Of a stretch of 64,000 nt of DNA, positions 55,989 to 63,943 are shown piece by piece. A program made the position numbers and the translations under genes. Within the stretch, counting starts at the first letter, position 1. Every line of letters begins with the position of its first letter. The stretch lies in the NCBI GenBank assembly GCA_015487235.1, contig WFQC01000157.1:1-64000 (forward strand), read 5' to 3'. The notes beneath the pieces were generated by a model. It did no database searches and was not told the origin of the DNA. It saw only the letters and a list, made by a program, of their open reading frames with translations. This DNA is from Alteromonadaceae bacterium (lineage in GTDB: Bacteria > Pseudomonadota > Gammaproteobacteria > Enterobacterales > Alteromonadaceae).

Positions 55989-56039
55989 TAAGTTTTTAAA
56001 CCCTAAAACCTCCTTTTATGACGCAAATCAATTGTTTTT

Positions 56040-56063
56040 TCTATAAACACATGTTGTTATAGA
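56040..56063. promoter_or_regulatory. Candidate operator of the WYL regulator
   Basis: A 24-bp imperfect dyad with 7-bp outer arms TCTATAA (56040-56046) and TTATAGA (56057-56063) and a matching centre ACATGT; 20 of 24 positions are symmetrical. It ends 33 bp before the ATG of the WYL regulator. BrxR/CapW-type regulators bind such inverted repeats at their own promoters. No second copy was seen before cas1. Confidence 0.5.
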
Positions 56064-56096
56064 TACACAGTTGCAGTCTCTAAAATATAATGGATT

Positions 56097-56927
56097 ATGA
56101 GTAAAAAATTAGCAGAATCGCGCTTTCACTTCATTGAACAACTTATTTGGTGGGAAGGGCAAATAAACACCAGCCCATTAATCGAAAAATTTGATATTAC
56201 TCGAGCACATGCTAGCAGTTTATTAAAAGCCTATAGAGAACAATACCCTAATAATTTATATTATGACCAATCAGCAAAAGCTTATGTTATTAATAAACAC
56301 TTTCAAGCGAATATAAACCTTGCTGACTTTTCCGATTATTTAAAAATAGTAGCTGACAGCAGTAACCATATACAGTCAAAGCTTGCCATTTGTGCCTTTG
56401 AAGTAGAAGCCCCATTAAGAAATATAAACGCCGAACAAGTGCGCCCCATTTTAAAAGCCATAAGAGAAAAATTAGCCATTGATATTGGTTATATTTCTCT
56501 TTCAAGCCCCGATTATCTCGATAGAATTATAGAACCCCACGCACTAATTTTTGATGGGTTGCGTTGGCATGTACGCGCTTTTTGTTGTAAAAACCAAGAT
56601 TTTAGAGACTTCACCTTATCGCGTTTTAATGGTGAAGCTATTTTTGAAGGCAAAGCAACTCATAGCGCAGAACAAGACAAAAAATGGAAAACTATGGTTG
56701 ATATTGTTATTCAACCAGACCCCCGTTTAAATGCTAAACAACAAGAGATTATCGCTAACGATTTTCAAATGGAAAACGGCAAAAAAATAATTCGTACTCG
56801 CGCAGCACTGGTTAATTACTTACTACTTCGCTTGCGTATCGATGGTTATAAAAATACGCCAGAAGAACAGCAAATAATACTAACGCCAGAATGTCAGAAA
56901 AGTATCAGCCAATATTTACCTAAATAG
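56097..56927 (+). CDS. WYL-domain transcriptional regulator (BrxR/CapW-like)
   Basis: In 276 residues an N-terminal winged helix (about 5-70) has FDITRAHASSLLKAYREQYP near 35-54, which resembles the recognition helix region of BrxR-type regulators. The WYL domain (about 115-195) has the variant RWHVRAFC near 154-161 and DFRDFTLSRF near 167-176. A C-terminal dimer domain (about 200-276) completes it. This three-domain layout and length match BrxR/CapW, repressors next to phage-defence operons such as BREX and CBASS. Here it stands 102 bp before cas1, in the same direction, so it may sense nucleic acid or a nucleotide signal and control the type I-F operon. This is an inference from position. 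Confidence 0.82.
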   Translation: MSKKLAESRFHFIEQLIWWEGQINTSPLIEKFDITRAHASSLLKAYREQYPNNLYYDQSAKAYVINKHFQANINLADFSDYLKIVADSSNHIQSKLAICAFEVEAPLRNINAEQVRPILKAIREKLAIDIGYISLSSPDYLDRIIEPHALIFDGLRWHVRAFCCKNQDFRDFTLSRFNGEAIFEGKATHSAEQDKKWKTMVDIVIQPDPRLNAKQQEIIANDFQMENGKKIIRTRAALVNYLLLRLRIDGYKNTPEEQQIILTPECQKSISQYLPK

Positions 56928-57029
56928 CTCTTACACTACCTGTATAGTTTTTTTACGGGTTAAAAATACAGTATTGAGCCATAAACAAAAGCCAAGTAAT
57001 TTAAGTGAAAACAAGGAGACGTTGTATTT

Positions 57030-58013
57030 ATGAAAGACTTATCACCAAGTGATTTAAAAGCTATTTTGCATTCAAAACGTGCTAATTTGTTTTATCTTGA
57101 ATATTGTCGGGTAATGCAAAAAGACGGGCGTGTATTGTATTTAACCGAGGCACAGAAAGAAAACTTATATTTTAATATTCCTATTGCTAATACCACAGTT
57201 TTACTTTTAGGGAACGGCACCTCAATTACTCAAGCTGCAGTAAGAATGCTTGCACAAGCAGGCGTATTAATTGGGTTTAGTGGCGGTGGTGGTACACCCT
57301 TATATATGGCGAACGATGTTGAACAACCTATAGAATGGTTTACGCCACAATCAGAATATCGTCCTACAGAATACTTACAAGGTTGGATGAAGTTTTGGTT
57401 TGATGATGAAAAACGTCTTGCTGCCGCCAAACAATTCCAACAAGCGCGTATTGAATTTCTTCATAAAATTTGGGGTAAAGACCGAGATTTAAAAAACGAA
57501 GGCTTTACCATGAACGATAGTGGCATTAAAAGCGCACTAATGCGTTTTAACGAACGCATGGCAACGGCGATAAAATCATCAGACATATTACTTACCGAAG
57601 CACAACTTACCAAAGCACTCTATAAATTTGCGGCTAATACGACTAAAACAGAAGGCTTTACGAGACAACACAATTCAACCGACTTAGCGAATGATTTTTT
57701 AAATCACGGCAATTATTTAGCTTACGGCTTAGCTGCTACCACACTTTGGGTCTTAGGTATTCCGCATGGTTTTGCCGTAATGCACGGGAAAACCCGTCGT
57801 GGCGCATTAGTATTTGATATTGCTGATTTAATTAAAGATGCCATTGTATTACCGTGGGCATTTGTTTGTGCTAAAGAAAATGCTACCGAACAAGAATTTC
57901 GTCAACAAGTATTACAAGCTTTTACCGATCATAAAGCGCTAGATTTTATGTTTGAGCAAGTTAAAACCGTTGCATTGCAGGGGCAAGAAGCCAATGAGGA
58001 AATGCCGTTATGA
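57030..58013 (+). CDS. cas1: CRISPR-associated endonuclease Cas1, subtype I-F
   Basis: Integrates new spacers together with Cas2. In 327 residues, typical for Cas1f, it begins MKDLSPSDLKAILHSKRANLFYLEYCRV. LLLGNGTSITQAAVRMLAQAGVLIGFSGGGGTPLY follows near 54-88. The C-terminal metal site is formed by NHGNYLAYGLAATTLWVLG near 228-246 and HGKTRRGALVFDIADLIKD near 255-273 (His and Asp). An AAGGAGA ribosome binding site lies about 10 nt upstream. It overlaps the next gene by 4 nt. Confidence 0.96.
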   Translation: MKDLSPSDLKAILHSKRANLFYLEYCRVMQKDGRVLYLTEAQKENLYFNIPIANTTVLLLGNGTSITQAAVRMLAQAGVLIGFSGGGGTPLYMANDVEQPIEWFTPQSEYRPTEYLQGWMKFWFDDEKRLAAAKQFQQARIEFLHKIWGKDRDLKNEGFTMNDSGIKSALMRFNERMATAIKSSDILLTEAQLTKALYKFAANTTKTEGFTRQHNSTDLANDFLNHGNYLAYGLAATTLWVLGIPHGFAVMHGKTRRGALVFDIADLIKDAIVLPWAFVCAKENATEQEFRQQVLQAFTDHKALDFMFEQVKTVALQGQEANEEMPL

Positions 58014-61000
58014 TGGTTACTTTTATCAGTCAATGTGAAAAAAACGCCCTCAAGAAAACCCGTAGAGTACTTGATGCTTTTGCTAATCGCATTGGTGATA
58101 ACACATGGCAAACGGTGATCACTGAAGACGGCTTACAAACGGTTAAAAAAATGCTCCGCCAAACTGCCAGTAAAAGCACCGCAGTGAGTTGTCATTGGAT
58201 TCGCTCACGCGCCAGAAGTCAATTTTTGTGGGTGGTGGGCAATAAAAGTAAGTTTAATGCTGAGGGCGTAGTGCCGGTGAATAATACAGGTAAAGAGTTG
58301 ACACAATTTATGGATAACAATCAATGGAAAACGATTGAAGTAATTAAATACTCCGTCGCTATTGCCGGTTTATTTCATGATTTTGGTAAAGCGAATAGTT
58401 TATTCCAGAATAAATTGCTTCCTAAAAAGTTGCGCAATAAAGGTTCAAAGACATATGAACCATTTCGTCATGAGTGGATTTCTCTTAGATTATTTCAAGC
58501 GTTTGTGGAAACATACGGGAATGATAAGCAATGGCTTACAGCATTGACAAATATTAATCCTGATGAAATAAATCAATGCTTTAGAGATGGAAAAAAACTA
58601 GATGGGAAAGTGGGTAGTAATCATCCATTTATAAGTTTACCCCCTTTTGCAAAGTTAGTTGCTTGGCTAATTTTAACTCACCATAAATTGCCATTATCAC
58701 CAAGCTGGAAAGATGGTGTTGATGCAGCACCAATAGAAGATATTGATGAATGGGTTACAGAAGATTTTAGTGCTATTTGGAATTCTTATAATTGCAATGA
58801 GTTGCAAGAATTTGTAATTGATAATTGGACTTTTGTTGAATCTGGGCTGCCATATCAAAGTGATGCATGGCGTTATAATGCTAAGGATATTGCACTTTCG
58901 GCATTAAAAATAGTTTCAAGTATAGATTGTGTCGACTTTTTATCTGATCACATATTTACTTCGCATACAGCACGCTTATGTTTAATGCTGGCTGATCATT
59001 ATTGGTCAAATGATAAACGTGATAGAGAAGAACGCTGGCGCTCATCAAACTATGAGGTGTATGCCAATACACACAGTAAAACTAAGGCGTTAAAACAACA
59101 GTTAGATGAGCATTTAATTGGCGTTGCATTTGAAGCTAAAAAAATTGCTTTAGCTTTACCTTCTTTTAAACATGAGCTGGTATCACTTGAAAATAATGAC
59201 TTTCTAGAGAGCAAAGTATCTAAAAATGATGAAGATAAGTATCTCCAATTTGGGTGGCAAAACCAAGCTCAAAAATTAGCAAAAATATTGAGTAAAAATA
59301 CTCAAGAAAATGGTTTTTTCGGAATAAATATGGCATCCACTGGGCGAGGAAAAACTTTAGCTAATGCCAAAATTATGTATGCGTTAGGTGAAAAATCAGG
59401 TAAAAGACGGTTTAGCGTAGCTTTGGGGCTGCGCACGTTAACATTGCAAACGGGGCGGGAATATCGAAATCAATTAGAACTTACTGACGAACAGTTAGCA
59501 ATAGCGGTTGGTGGTATAGCGGTAAAACAATTATTTGAAAATGCAGAGACCACTAAAGTCGATATGCAAGGGACTGACTATGAATACAGAAGCGACACAG
59601 GTAGCGAGTCTCAGAACGACTATTTAGATCGAGATTTACATGTTGATTATACGGGCAAGCGAATTCAACATAGTTTATCGACGTGGACTACTGAAAACGA
59701 ACGAATTGAAAAGTTAATTCAAGCCCCTATCTTGGTATGTACAGTAGATCACTTAATTCCAGCCACTGAAGGTATAAAAGGAGGTAAACAAATTGCGCCA
59801 ATGCTACGACTGTTGACTTCAGATTTAGTGATTGATGAGCCCGATGATTTTGGCTTAGAAGATCTGCCTGCACTCTGTCGCTTAGTTCATTGGGCAGGAA
59901 TGTTAGGTAGTCGAGTTTTACTCTCTACAGCGACTATGCCTCTAGCATTAACGTATGCTGCTTTTCAAGCCTATCAAGCTGGCTGGTCGCAGTATGCCAA
60001 GGCTAATTTGGGCGGTTGGAACGGTGAAATAACTTGCGCATGGTTTGATGAAAATAAAACTAAAGACCAGCAAATTACTACGTTTTCTTCGTATGAAAAC
60101 GCGCACAAAAAATTTATTAGGGAACGGATAAAATATTTAGATTCTACTAAGTGTGAAAAACACCTTGCTGAGATTGTAGCAATTACAAAAAGTGTTGAAA
60201 GATCTGTTGTTCAAGCCGTTGCAGAAACATTTCAATCAGGTGCACTAAAACTACATAACCAGCATTATATCAACATAGGCAATAAGCATATATCCATTGG
60301 ATTAATTCGTATGGCAAACATTGATCCTATGGTTGCCGTTGCAAAGGAATTTTTAAAATTAAAAGTGGGTCAACCCGATACAAGAATTCATTTGTGTGTG
60401 TATCACAGTAAATTTCCTTTGGCAGTTAGGTCTTATCTTGAACGTAAGCTTGACCTGTATCTAAAGCGAAACTCGAAAGAAAATGTATGGCCACCAAAAG
60501 AGTTTGTGGATAACCTACAGAATTTTGAAGAAGCACATCATATTTTTATTGTGTTAGCTTCTCCCGTAGCAGAGGTTGGCAGGGATCATGATTACGATTG
60601 GGCGATTATTGAACCAAGTTCAATGCGGTCAATTATTCAAATTGCCGGTAGGGTTTTAAGACACCGAAATAAAGTACCAACATCGCCAAATATTTTATTG
60701 TTAGATAAGAATATTAAAAATTTAAACGGTAAATCGGTATGCTTTGATGAGCCAGGTTTTGAGCTTAAAGAACTTAAAATGGATAAGCATGATTTAAAAG
60801 AGGTTTTAGACGAGCATCAATATCAAAAAATCAACTCAATTCAACGCATAATGTCACCAACTAATTATAAAGAAAATGCGAAAATTAATTTAGTCGCATT
60901 GGAGCATAAAGCATTGGAATTACAGCTGTTAGAGTCTAAAAATGCAGCAAAGTGTTGGTGGGTAAATTCACCATTTTGGTGTGGAGAAATTCAGAATCAG

Positions 61001-61348
61001 CAAAAATTTAGATATTCACGCAAAGATGAAGCTTTTCATTTATTTATTAACAATGATGATTTTCTGTATTTTCAACGGAAAAATGAGAATGTTTATCCTG
61101 CCGAATGGGGCGCGAACAACGGCGTAATTGAATTGAATGATTTACTTAGTCTCAATTCAAGTAACTCAATATGGGTTGAGCTAGATAGTCAAAAAATTTA
61201 CCAAAGATTGGCGAATGATTTTGATCAATCATTAGAACAAATAGCCAAGTCGTTTGGTGAAGTTAGAATTACTGAAAATAAAAATATTTCATATACATAC
61301 ACATATCACGAGTTTTTAGGGTTGTTTAGGGAATTAGATTATGATTGA
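58010..61348 (+). CDS. cas3f: Cas2-Cas3 fusion nuclease-helicase, subtype I-F
   Basis: Fusion found only in type I-F. Of 1112 residues, about 1-90 are the Cas2 domain (MVTFISQCEKNALKKTRRVLDAF at the start). The HD nuclease has AGLFHDFGKANSLFQNK near 119-135 (H123, D124) and HEWISLRLF near 155. The helicase has a P-loop (ASTGRGKT) near 443-450, the Walker B box VIDEPDDF (DEPD for DExD) near 607, SATMP near 645 and IIQIAGRVLRHR near 873-884. All active-site motifs appear intact, so it should be active in target shredding. It overlaps csy1 by 8 nt. Confidence 0.96.
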   Translation: MMVTFISQCEKNALKKTRRVLDAFANRIGDNTWQTVITEDGLQTVKKMLRQTASKSTAVSCHWIRSRARSQFLWVVGNKSKFNAEGVVPVNNTGKELTQFMDNNQWKTIEVIKYSVAIAGLFHDFGKANSLFQNKLLPKKLRNKGSKTYEPFRHEWISLRLFQAFVETYGNDKQWLTALTNINPDEINQCFRDGKKLDGKVGSNHPFISLPPFAKLVAWLILTHHKLPLSPSWKDGVDAAPIEDIDEWVTEDFSAIWNSYNCNELQEFVIDNWTFVESGLPYQSDAWRYNAKDIALSALKIVSSIDCVDFLSDHIFTSHTARLCLMLADHYWSNDKRDREERWRSSNYEVYANTHSKTKALKQQLDEHLIGVAFEAKKIALALPSFKHELVSLENNDFLESKVSKNDEDKYLQFGWQNQAQKLAKILSKNTQENGFFGINMASTGRGKTLANAKIMYALGEKSGKRRFSVALGLRTLTLQTGREYRNQLELTDEQLAIAVGGIAVKQLFENAETTKVDMQGTDYEYRSDTGSESQNDYLDRDLHVDYTGKRIQHSLSTWTTENERIEKLIQAPILVCTVDHLIPATEGIKGGKQIAPMLRLLTSDLVIDEPDDFGLEDLPALCRLVHWAGMLGSRVLLSTATMPLALTYAAFQAYQAGWSQYAKANLGGWNGEITCAWFDENKTKDQQITTFSSYENAHKKFIRERIKYLDSTKCEKHLAEIVAITKSVERSVVQAVAETFQSGALKLHNQHYINIGNKHISIGLIRMANIDPMVAVAKEFLKLKVGQPDTRIHLCVYHSKFPLAVRSYLERKLDLYLKRNSKENVWPPKEFVDNLQNFEEAHHIFIVLASPVAEVGRDHDYDWAIIEPSSMRSIIQIAGRVLRHRNKVPTSPNILLLDKNIKNLNGKSVCFDEPGFELKELKMDKHDLKEVLDEHQYQKINSIQRIMSPTNYKENAKINLVALEHKALELQLLESKNAAKCWWVNSPFWCGEIQNQQKFRYSRKDEAFHLFINNDDFLYFQRKNENVYPAEWGANNGVIELNDLLSLNSSNSIWVELDSQKIYQRLANDFDQSLEQIAKSFGEVRITENKNISYTYTYHEFLGLFRELDYD

Positions 61349-62786
61349 ACCGCAAATAAATAGTTGGACTGATGCTATTGTTCAGTTCTTTGAAAATGAA
61401 ATTAAAGAGTCTGAACTTTATAAAGCTAGAGCAGCTTACGAAAAAAAGCTTACTGCTTTAAAAACTGAAAAAGCTCCAAAGAATATAAGTAAATTGGAAA
61501 AACATATTGAATCTAATAAACAAGCATTATTAAAAATTCGAGAGAATAATATTTCAGATGATATAAAAGGTTTTGTGTATAACTGGGTTATTAAAAATAA
61601 ATCACCTTATAAAGTGCCAGAACCTAATAAATTAATCACTAAGGTTACGCACCCACTTAAATTCTCTCACTCCGCTGATATCAATGCTGGTATAAATGAT
61701 AGCAAAATAGAGGCTTTAGATTATTTATCTACAGGAGCAATTCAAAATAGAGATTATGATCTTACTCACCATAATGGCGCAATCATTCAGTTAGTGCGAC
61801 TTTTAGGAGTAAGCTTTAAAAATGAGATGATTTATGACTGTGTGATTGAAAATGATTTCAGTTTTTTAAACGATTTTAGGTTGCTGAAAGATGAAATGAA
61901 AACTTGGGAAAGTCAGTTTAAAGCTTGGATCGCTGACAAATCAATAAAGACAGTTGGCAGGGCAAAACAAATTTATTTTCCTCATCTGCATAACCAATAT
62001 GTACGACAGTACCATTTATTAGCGATTTTACACTCATCTACTTTGAGCCACGAAATCTATAAGCGGGCTTATGTACAACGTTTTAGTGATTTAAATCGCG
62101 ATATTATGAATCAGAAAAAAAAAGATAAATATCACCAGAATGTTTCAATTAGTTACCCAAGTTTGGCGACTGTTGAATATGGTAACGGTCAACCTCAGAA
62201 TGTTTCACTGTTGAATATAACAGCTAACGGATTAAGTTATTTACTTCCTTGCTCGCCACCTAAATACAAGAAAATCACAAAGCCACCCATGCAAGTAAAA
62301 ACTGTATTTGATGATAAAGCGTTTAGTAAAACTCGAGTGAAAGACACTTTAACTTACATGGCTGATTTTTTAGTTCGGTTTTCTTTGGTAAATAAAAGTG
62401 TTAAAGCTTCTGAAAAAAAGAAATGGCTAGAAAAATGGTGTGGTCAAATTGTCGAGGAGTTTTTTCAATATGTGTACAGTATGCAGGAATTTAAAGCGGG
62501 TTGGTCTTTATCTAAAGAATGTAAATTACGTCAAGAATACAAGTTGTTATTAGATCCATTTCATGCTGAAGAACGGGCGCTTGAACAGTTAAATGAAAGT
62601 GCTTGGCAGGGAGATGTTATCAATGATTTTGCTAATTGGTTAAACAGAGCATTGGAAAAAAGTAATAAAAAGTTTACAGGTACGGAATGGCATAAAAAAG
62701 TTTGGCGTGATTGTTTTGCACCTGAATTACGCGATTTTAAAGATGAAATAAAACAGCTAATAAAGGTGGAGGAAGTTTCGAAATGA
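61341..62786 (+). CDS. csy1: Type I-F Cascade large subunit Csy1 (Cas8f)
   Basis: Forms the head of the Csy complex with Csy2 and reads the PAM. In 481 residues the family shows here as HPLKFSHSADINAGI near 111-125, SLATVEYGNGQPQNVSLLN near 272-290, and LLPCSPPKYK near 300. A charged coiled segment (about 20-70) precedes. It is about 45 residues longer than the P. aeruginosa protein. The C-terminal half is rich in W and E. It overlaps csy2 by 4 nt. Confidence 0.9.
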   Translation: MIEPQINSWTDAIVQFFENEIKESELYKARAAYEKKLTALKTEKAPKNISKLEKHIESNKQALLKIRENNISDDIKGFVYNWVIKNKSPYKVPEPNKLITKVTHPLKFSHSADINAGINDSKIEALDYLSTGAIQNRDYDLTHHNGAIIQLVRLLGVSFKNEMIYDCVIENDFSFLNDFRLLKDEMKTWESQFKAWIADKSIKTVGRAKQIYFPHLHNQYVRQYHLLAILHSSTLSHEIYKRAYVQRFSDLNRDIMNQKKKDKYHQNVSISYPSLATVEYGNGQPQNVSLLNITANGLSYLLPCSPPKYKKITKPPMQVKTVFDDKAFSKTRVKDTLTYMADFLVRFSLVNKSVKASEKKKWLEKWCGQIVEEFFQYVYSMQEFKAGWSLSKECKLRQEYKLLLDPFHAEERALEQLNESAWQGDVINDFANWLNRALEKSNKKFTGTEWHKKVWRDCFAPELRDFKDEIKQLIKVEEVSK

Positions 62787-63943
62787 CTCAATTTATTCTT
62801 ATCAATAAAATTCAAGTGCAAGATGCTAATTGTGTAGCAGGGTTAACTTGGGGCTTTCCTTCAATTAATGGCTTTCTTGGTTTTGTTCATGCCTTAGCAT
62901 TAAATAATCAAAAATCTTCTTTTTCTAAAATCGGCATTAGTAATCAGGTTATGGTGGTTGTACACGAACATCAGCACCACACTTATGAAAATGATTATCA
63001 AATTACTCGGTTTAGCCAAAAGCGAGGCGCTAATTTTTACTCTGACACAAAAAGTGATAAACGCAGTAAAACCATGACACGCATTGAAGAAGGGCGTATG
63101 GATATGCTCATTTCGTTGTTAATTCCTATTGAAGGGCGTGTTAGTGCTAACAGCAAAGATGCGTTTGTTGATTATCTAAGTCACGCTGTTTCTACGATGA
63201 GGATAGCTGGTGGCTCAGTCATAGCAATAAAAGAAATAGACGTTTTAGCATTAGATGATACCAATAATAGTAATCAGCTTCTAGTTAAGCGTAAATTAAT
63301 GCCGGGTTATATTTTGCAAGATGCATCAGAGGAATTTCTAAAGCACTATGATAAGTCAAAATTATTAGGGCTTGACCAAATTGATGCGTGGTTAGATTTT
63401 GCAAGTATTAAGTATAAAGCGCGACCTGATTATAAAAAACTGACAGGCTATTTTAAAAAATTAGATGAGTCTGAAGAACAAAAAGAACAAGAGATTGTTC
63501 AAACATGGCAAGAGCATTTGAGTAAGCCGTACGACCAATCCTCGATACCTAGTGAGTTAAAACATTTTTTTTCTGAAAAGGCAAACTCAATTCCAGATGA
63601 TGTTTTAAAGCAGTGGCAAGAATACATAGTTCCAAATGCAGAGACTGACGCTAATTGGGAGTTGGTAGCTAAACCAGCACAAGGGTATTTAGTGCCCATT
63701 ATGAATGGTTATAGGCGAATATCGGAAGATGTAAGTGAAATTGAAAACTTGAGGGGGATTAAGTCCACCCCTGAAAAACAAGGTGATTTTGAGAATGCTT
63801 ATTTTGCCGAGGCTACATACAGTATCGCTAAATGGGTATTTGTTAGGCGTATTAAATTTGAAAACTTGAAGCAATATTTTTGGCGGCATGAATACAACTC
63901 AGAGGTTGGATTGTATTCATGTGTTATGTCAAACAGTATTTAA
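62783..63943 (+). CDS. csy2: Type I-F Cascade subunit Csy2 (Cas5f)
   Basis: Binds the 5' handle of the CRISPR RNA with Csy1. In 386 residues it begins with the RAMP-like N-terminus MTQFILINKIQVQDANCVAGLTWGFPSINGFLGFVHAL, and GLTWGFPSINGF is typical of Csy2. The segment RIEEGRMDMLISLLIPIEG follows near 102-120. A charged stretch near 225-250 (DESEEQKEQEIVQTW) is probably a loop insertion. It ends with YNSEVGLYSCVMSN. At 386 residues it is longer than the roughly 330 of P. aeruginosa Csy2. It is 27 bp before csy3. Confidence 0.92.
   Translation: MTQFILINKIQVQDANCVAGLTWGFPSINGFLGFVHALALNNQKSSFSKIGISNQVMVVVHEHQHHTYENDYQITRFSQKRGANFYSDTKSDKRSKTMTRIEEGRMDMLISLLIPIEGRVSANSKDAFVDYLSHAVSTMRIAGGSVIAIKEIDVLALDDTNNSNQLLVKRKLMPGYILQDASEEFLKHYDKSKLLGLDQIDAWLDFASIKYKARPDYKKLTGYFKKLDESEEQKEQEIVQTWQEHLSKPYDQSSIPSELKHFFSEKANSIPDDVLKQWQEYIVPNAETDANWELVAKPAQGYLVPIMNGYRRISEDVSEIENLRGIKSTPEKQGDFENAYFAEATYSIAKWVFVRRIKFENLKQYFWRHEYNSEVGLYSCVMSNSI

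Follow-up and report, generated by a model that had tools for sequence, protein, structure and literature searches.

In the DNA analysed here—64,000 nucleotides from an Alteromonadaceae bacterium, positions 1 to 64,000 of contig WFQC01000157.1 (assembly GCA_015487235.1), hereafter the window—a type I-F cas operon is preceded by the gene of a BrxR/CapW-type WYL regulator, whose predicted operator lies behind its own gene and in front of the predicted cas promoter. The whole explanation that we favour, in which BrxR controls the cas promoter through this dyad, most likely by activation, is given a probability of roughly 0.58. The evidence is computational and consists of the family of the regulator, its linkage to cas genes, a conserved dyad, the identity of the dyad core with a proven site and a fixed spacing to a predicted promoter. 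Local control of cas by BrxR, which an earlier note on this DNA had suggested, is well supported by the linkage and by the conservation of the dyad before cas. The genes concerned are the following.

56097..56927, + strand: brxR/capW-like gene, 276 aa, wHTH-WYL-WCX
57030..58013, + strand: cas1f; best PADLOC model Cas1fv (602 bits, vs 492 for Cas1f)
58010..61348, + strand: cas2-3f; its first ~100 aa (Cas2 domain) also match Cas3fv
61341..62786, + strand: csy1 (cas8f)
62783..63943, + strand: csy2 (cas5f)

Judged by its sequence, the brxR product is a full-length member of the BrxR/CapW family of WYL regulators. It matches Pfam WYL (1.2e-11), and among solved proteins it comes closest to CapW of P. 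aeruginosa (7tb5, 1.2e-42) and BrxR of Acinetobacter (7t8k, 2e-42); the match to solved BrxR/CapW proteins is nearly full-length (residues 7-262, E 1e-42) and extends to further solved members. Its recognition helix reads T35-R36-A37-H38, with R36 aligned to R38 of Acinetobacter BrxR. Both homology and position thus bear out the regulator that the earlier note had placed directly ahead of a type I-F cas operon, 102 bp from cas1: as is typical of the family, full-length homology coincides with an adjacent defence operon on the same strand, cas1f starting at 57030 after the brxR stop. No other WYL gene is present in the 3.07-Mb assembly, and searches of phages and plasmids for BrxR returned distant relatives only (<60%), among which two Pseudomonas plasmids carry a dyad upstream of brxR.

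Downstream of csy2, csy3 (assigned by position and size only) is followed by csy4, which the end of the contig truncates at 65502; the type I-F1 gene set of cas1, cas2-3, csy1, csy2, csy3 and csy4 is therefore present with csy4 incomplete. A search of the assembly for an I-F-like CRISPR repeat returned none; the contig stops inside csy4. As a separate observation, cas1 and the Cas2 domain of cas2-3 (57030-58330) resemble type I-Fv, as they do in L084, L007 and L012: the Cas2 domain is 83-92% identical to that of I-Fv loci and Cas1fv is the best cas1 model, while the helicase part and the Csy proteins are of type I-F1. Adaptation and effector parts seem to have recombined at the Cas2-Cas3 fusion.

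The arrangement recurs well beyond the window. Across 395 genomes of the order, 19 of 65 Cas1f loci have a BrxR gene directly upstream on the same strand, and 18 of these 19 genes lie ≤350 bp from cas1f; the regulator is thus linked to cas genes elsewhere, the point on which the proposal of the earlier note could have failed. A search with the window protein yielded ten loci, and cas1f is the next gene in all nine whose contig extends past brxR. No upstream BrxR occurs at any Cas1f locus of family f27, to which a large share of the 65 belongs, so that the trait is lineage-dependent. Proximity of CRISPR-Cas to BrxR had been counted before, in 21 of 210 systems and within 50 kb (Picton et al. 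2022, PMC9122601); the main text of that survey mentions neither I-F nor a downstream position of the operator.

A palindromic target of the family type does accompany the window regulator, but behind brxR rather than in front of it, and it is followed by a predicted promoter.

56938..56960: predicted BrxR operator, 23-bp dyad ACCTGTATAGTTTTTTTACGGGT, centre 56949, 10 bp behind the brxR stop
56969..56976, + strand: conserved block CAGTATTG, whose TTG begins the -35
56974..56979, + strand: predicted -35 of the cas promoter, TTGAGC, +25 from the dyad centre
56997..57002, + strand: predicted -10 of the cas promoter, TAATTT, +48 from the dyad centre

A motif search in 28 brxR-cas1 intergenic regions recovered the block with a log-likelihood of 462, compared with 124-134 in shuffled sets. 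Its consensus is ACMTGTAAA-N5-TTTACAKGT (or ACMTGTCGC..GCGACAKGT), followed after a short gap by CAGNRTTG. The training set of the resulting weight matrix (PWM) consisted of cas1f loci; two of them, L010 and L081, turned out to be I-E loci with a cas1f stub. The 56938-56960 dyad is the top match of this PWM over the whole window locus, and in nearly every locus nothing else in the stretch examined scores higher than the block.

The dyad can be compared with a target proven by crystallography, that of Acinetobacter BrxR (PMC9122589), which on its plasmid (L144) reads ATACCGTAAA-AATAA-TTTACTGTAT. Applied to this plasmid, the PWM picks exactly the proven site upstream of brxR as its top match, but weakly (2.4 bits), and the GTAAA-N5-TTTAC core is identical in sequence and spacing between the proven site and the consensus of the CRISPR loci. 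R38 of the Acinetobacter protein contacts G and T at ±7 and ±6 (Luyten et al., PMC9122589). Q takes the place of the corresponding R36 in just two loci, L075 and L093, and these are also the sole CRISPR loci in which both halves of the dyad are without G/C at ±7, a covariation that is suggestive only, because it reflects one evolutionary event. Both loci belong to one genome (G228), which harbours an I-F and an I-C locus, each with a separate BrxR that combines the rare Q-type recognition helix with a matching altered dyad.

The position of the dyad behind brxR is specific to CRISPR loci. At a threshold of 14 bits (99.9% of the background lies below 12.3), it was found there in 34 of 38 CRISPR-linked loci and in none of the 25 non-CRISPR BrxRs of the first set (maximum 2.6), nine of which have a family-type dyad upstream of brxR instead (>9 bits). 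The four exceptions are L091, in which brxR is split, L077 and L019, in which the dyad is one base shorter, and L082. In L091 (4489-6619), an insertion of ~1.3 kb splits brxR, and the dyad in front of cas1 is intact. L082 has its dyad upstream of brxR and a brxR-cas1 gap of 3 bp; it is the only CRISPR-linked BrxR in the canonical BrxR group of the tree, and because of this placement and its upstream dyad it is apparently a separate recruitment. Joining the other 39 CRISPR-linked BrxR rows in one clade gives a slightly better likelihood (AU p 0.57), which is compatible with a single origin of these regulators but no proof of it.

Nor is the dyad restricted to type I-F. Although trained on cas1f, the PWM also found it in I-E, I-C and I-G-like loci, and in I-C, I-E and V-A loci of a fresh set. 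Overall, the first cas gene has the dyad ahead of it in I-F1, I-Fv (L007, L084), I-E (L117, L118 by PADLOC; L114, L119, L123, L124 by gene order), I-C (L116, L093 by PADLOC; L115 by gene order), I-G-like (L135, whose helicase was judged by eye from a partial ORF) and type V-A loci. The last of these (L198/L204; oriented 2119-10261 in L204) has the order brxR-dyad-cas12a-cas4-cas1-cas2-array, with Cas12a typed by PADLOC and NCBIfam and the remaining genes by gene order. The fresh set came from phylum and family searches, and with the threshold fixed beforehand 8 of 16 cas-linked BrxRs and 1 of 27 others were positive (Fisher p 6e-4), the single positive among the others being the V-A locus with its dyad before cas12a; of the eight cas-linked loci below threshold, seven have a weaker or more distant copy, by eye only. 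The loci are related, and all of these locus counts are therefore not independent.

The spacing between dyad and predicted promoter is fixed as well. Counted from the centre of the dyad, 25 of 37 loci have their best -10 by a sigma-70 matrix at +48 to +50 (mean 1.2, maximum 6 in 200 shuffles), and TTG is found at +25/+26 in 33 of 37; the window's own -10 (TAATTT) is weak. The predicted cas start lies at ~57009, placing the dyad at about -60 and leaving the core promoter free, as far as predicted promoters can tell. Class I activators such as CRP act from about -60. A site of this type, centred near -61, upstream of the -35 and in fixed phase, is what the dyad amounts to on the predicted promoters, whereas the upstream dyads of non-CRISPR BrxRs mostly lie over or after the predicted promoter. 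Activation is thus the better reading of this geometry, because the dyad sits near -60, its spacing to the -35 is fixed and the core promoter is free.

Other readings of the block were dropped along the way: neither TACAGT or CAGNRT as a -10 nor a sigma-adaptation geometry as in PafBC agrees with TTG being a -35 with its -10 16-17 bp later. Stronger promoters in loci without BrxR were considered as support for activation and abandoned, as predicted promoter strength showed no difference between I-F loci with and without BrxR. Nearly all CRISPR-linked loci keep the CAG preceding the -35 (within 56969-56973) as strictly as they keep the dyad. Upstream of cas1 in L108, brxR has shrunk to a short N-terminal remnant; the dyad is kept and the TTG of the -35 has become TTA.

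We infer the following course of events. A homodimer of the CRISPR-dedicated BrxR would bind the dyad at 56938-56960 and thereby control the promoter before cas1, whose start would lie ~60 bp downstream of the dyad centre, and most likely it would activate cas transcription in a class I-like manner through contact with RNA polymerase. The brxR gene itself would probably be transcribed from its own upstream promoter, outside the autoregulation typical of BREX and CBASS: the 250 bp upstream of the window brxR contain no family-type site and thus depart from the canonical autoregulated layout. By family precedent, the ligand would be single-stranded DNA (ssDNA) arising from damage or infection. 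Such a signal is plausible by analogy, because CapW/BrxR, DriD and PafBC are described as responding to ssDNA and the WYL motif RWHVRA is retained in the window protein together with its surroundings.

Known regulators of I-F and I-E CRISPR-Cas systems are mostly global, and the earlier note had set local control apart from them. Local control has held up, yet the contrast proved too simple because an FNR-like box, treated here as a lead only, lies upstream of brxR in the window and in close relatives.

56018..56031: FNR-like box ATGACGCAAATCAA, centre 72 bp before brxR

A box of this kind 68-72 bp before brxR is common to the window, L006, L007, L011 and L012, and with ≤1 mismatch it occurs at 7 of 40 CRISPR-linked BrxRs (0.4 expected). 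FNR is an activator of the type I-E system in Citrobacter rodentium (PMC12669028), and in the window control by FNR and BrxR may be layered.

The alternative that deserves most attention retains the regulator and the operator and reverses the sign, making BrxR a repressor of the cas promoter that is released by ssDNA. All three characterised BrxR/CapW proteins are repressors (PMC9122588, PMC9122589, PMC9122601), which counts against activation; CapW/BrxR are described as repressing until ssDNA binds (PMC13373217), and the WYL pocket is largely conserved in the window protein. Yet the dyad lies off the predicted -35 and -10, at about -60 with fixed phasing, and no second conserved operator that could serve looping was seen, so that we regard repression as unlikely, though well worth keeping in mind. 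A different form of repression follows from the earlier note, which had pointed to a 24-bp dyad just before brxR.

56040..56063: dyad of the earlier note, TCTATAAACACATGTTGTTATAGA, 10 of 12 pairs (20 of 24 positions) symmetrical; not part of the best explanation

Bound there, the regulator would cover its own promoter and shut down the whole brxR-cas operon, and the dyad does overlap a -10-like sequence, TGTTATAGAT, much as CapW sites overlap -10 elements. The symmetry of 20 in 24 is real, but the role as an operator fell away: in the 100 bp upstream of brxR such a dyad is close to chance (p~0.07, dinucleotide shuffles), and neither L014 nor the two closest relatives, L005 and L006, whose proteins are 76% identical, showed one at the matching place. 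As it is, moreover, unlike BrxR half-sites, and the PWM finds no site upstream of brxR in this clade, we hold this variant to be very improbable.

The two remaining explanations dispense with a protein bound behind brxR or with regulation altogether. That the block is an RNA element (a terminator or attenuator) or a CRISPR-derived guide like CreR would suit its position between two genes and its copies in L087 and L088, which are perfect GC-rich inverted repeats. However, no T run follows it, L085-like copies have unequal halves that a DNA dyad would tolerate and a hairpin would not, the block agrees with the proven BrxR target, and other systems carry it upstream of brxR; no repeat-like sequence was found between brxR and cas1 for a CreR-type guide. 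The chances of this explanation are slimmer still. Slimmest of all are those of a mere defence-island neighbourhood in which brxR and cas adjoin and regulation plays no part: many islands do contain BrxR genes (PMC9122601), but the shared strand and close spacing, the conservation of the dyad behind brxR in the CRISPR context only and a clade compatible with a single origin all speak against it.

Activation of cas by BrxR from behind its own gene would set the window regulator apart from its relatives. BrxR of Acinetobacter sp. NEB394 (7t8k/7t8l), which belongs to a BREX locus, shares full-length homology, the recognition arginine and the GTAAA-N5-TTTAC core with it; its site, though, is upstream of brxR, at ~-51 to -27 of the brxR-BREX start, where this BrxR is proposed to act as a repressor, while the window dyad lies behind brxR and in front of cas. 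CapW of CBASS (7tb5, 7tb6, 9c5g) has the same domain order, WYL pocket and adjacent defence operon, and its reported ligand is ssDNA, but its sites overlap the -10 of its operon's promoter and its recognition motif (SVPQ, STPQ) lacks the arginine. Closer in the proposed mode of action are the WYL regulators DriD and PafBC, activators of DNA damage genes that are themselves activated by ssDNA; DriD is a homodimer contacting the beta subunit and the alpha C-terminal domain of RNA polymerase. Both differ from the window BrxR in not being linked to defence and in their target sites. Sll7009 of Synechocystis, a WYL repressor of a type I-D locus, is likewise a WYL regulator at a CRISPR locus, of a different subtype, and has no significant similarity to E. 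fergusonii BrxR according to Picton et al. (PMC9122601). That CRISPR-Cas occurs near BrxR is already known, as counts, from the same survey, whose search for inverted repeats covered no more than the 200 bp ahead of brxR and would have missed a downstream operator. The CRISPR-dedicated clade, the operator behind brxR and the -60 geometry were not found in the freely accessible literature searched, and a 2023 review of CRISPR regulation mentions neither WYL nor BrxR.

How the same block came to precede so many systems is illustrated by genus g4, in which BrxRs that are 94-97% identical, with the same dyad and promoter, stand before an I-F (L189), an I-E (L192) and two different I-C operons (L193, L195). 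Similar pairs occur at 79-83% (L118, I-E, with L087 and L088, I-F; L123, I-E, with L085 and L086, I-F). In L010 (8922-16813) and L081 (5252-13764), the brxR-operator-promoter block is followed by a 5′ stub of cas1f and then by an I-E operon, and these stubs, on our reading of the loci, are a direct trace of subtype replacement. Together with a layout common to at least five subtypes, this suggests a single portable switch that can serve one CRISPR system as well as another. A more far-reaching proposal, which we advance tentatively and at somewhat less than even odds, is that a CRISPR-dedicated BrxR lineage evolved from an autoregulated repressor into a class I activator responsive to DNA damage, and that regulator, operator and cas promoter now make up a portable socket behind which whole systems (I-F1, I-Fv, I-E, I-C, I-G, V-A) are swapped under unchanged control.

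Standing before several class 1 subtypes and also before one class 2 system, a dedicated, linked switch would amount to a common answer to the question of when CRISPR is turned on. It would let CRISPR answer to the signal that also governs BREX and CBASS, and it would explain how newly acquired CRISPR systems come under immediate control. With a precisely defined predicted operator, these loci offer a natural series in which the switch is constant and only the cas genes behind it differ.
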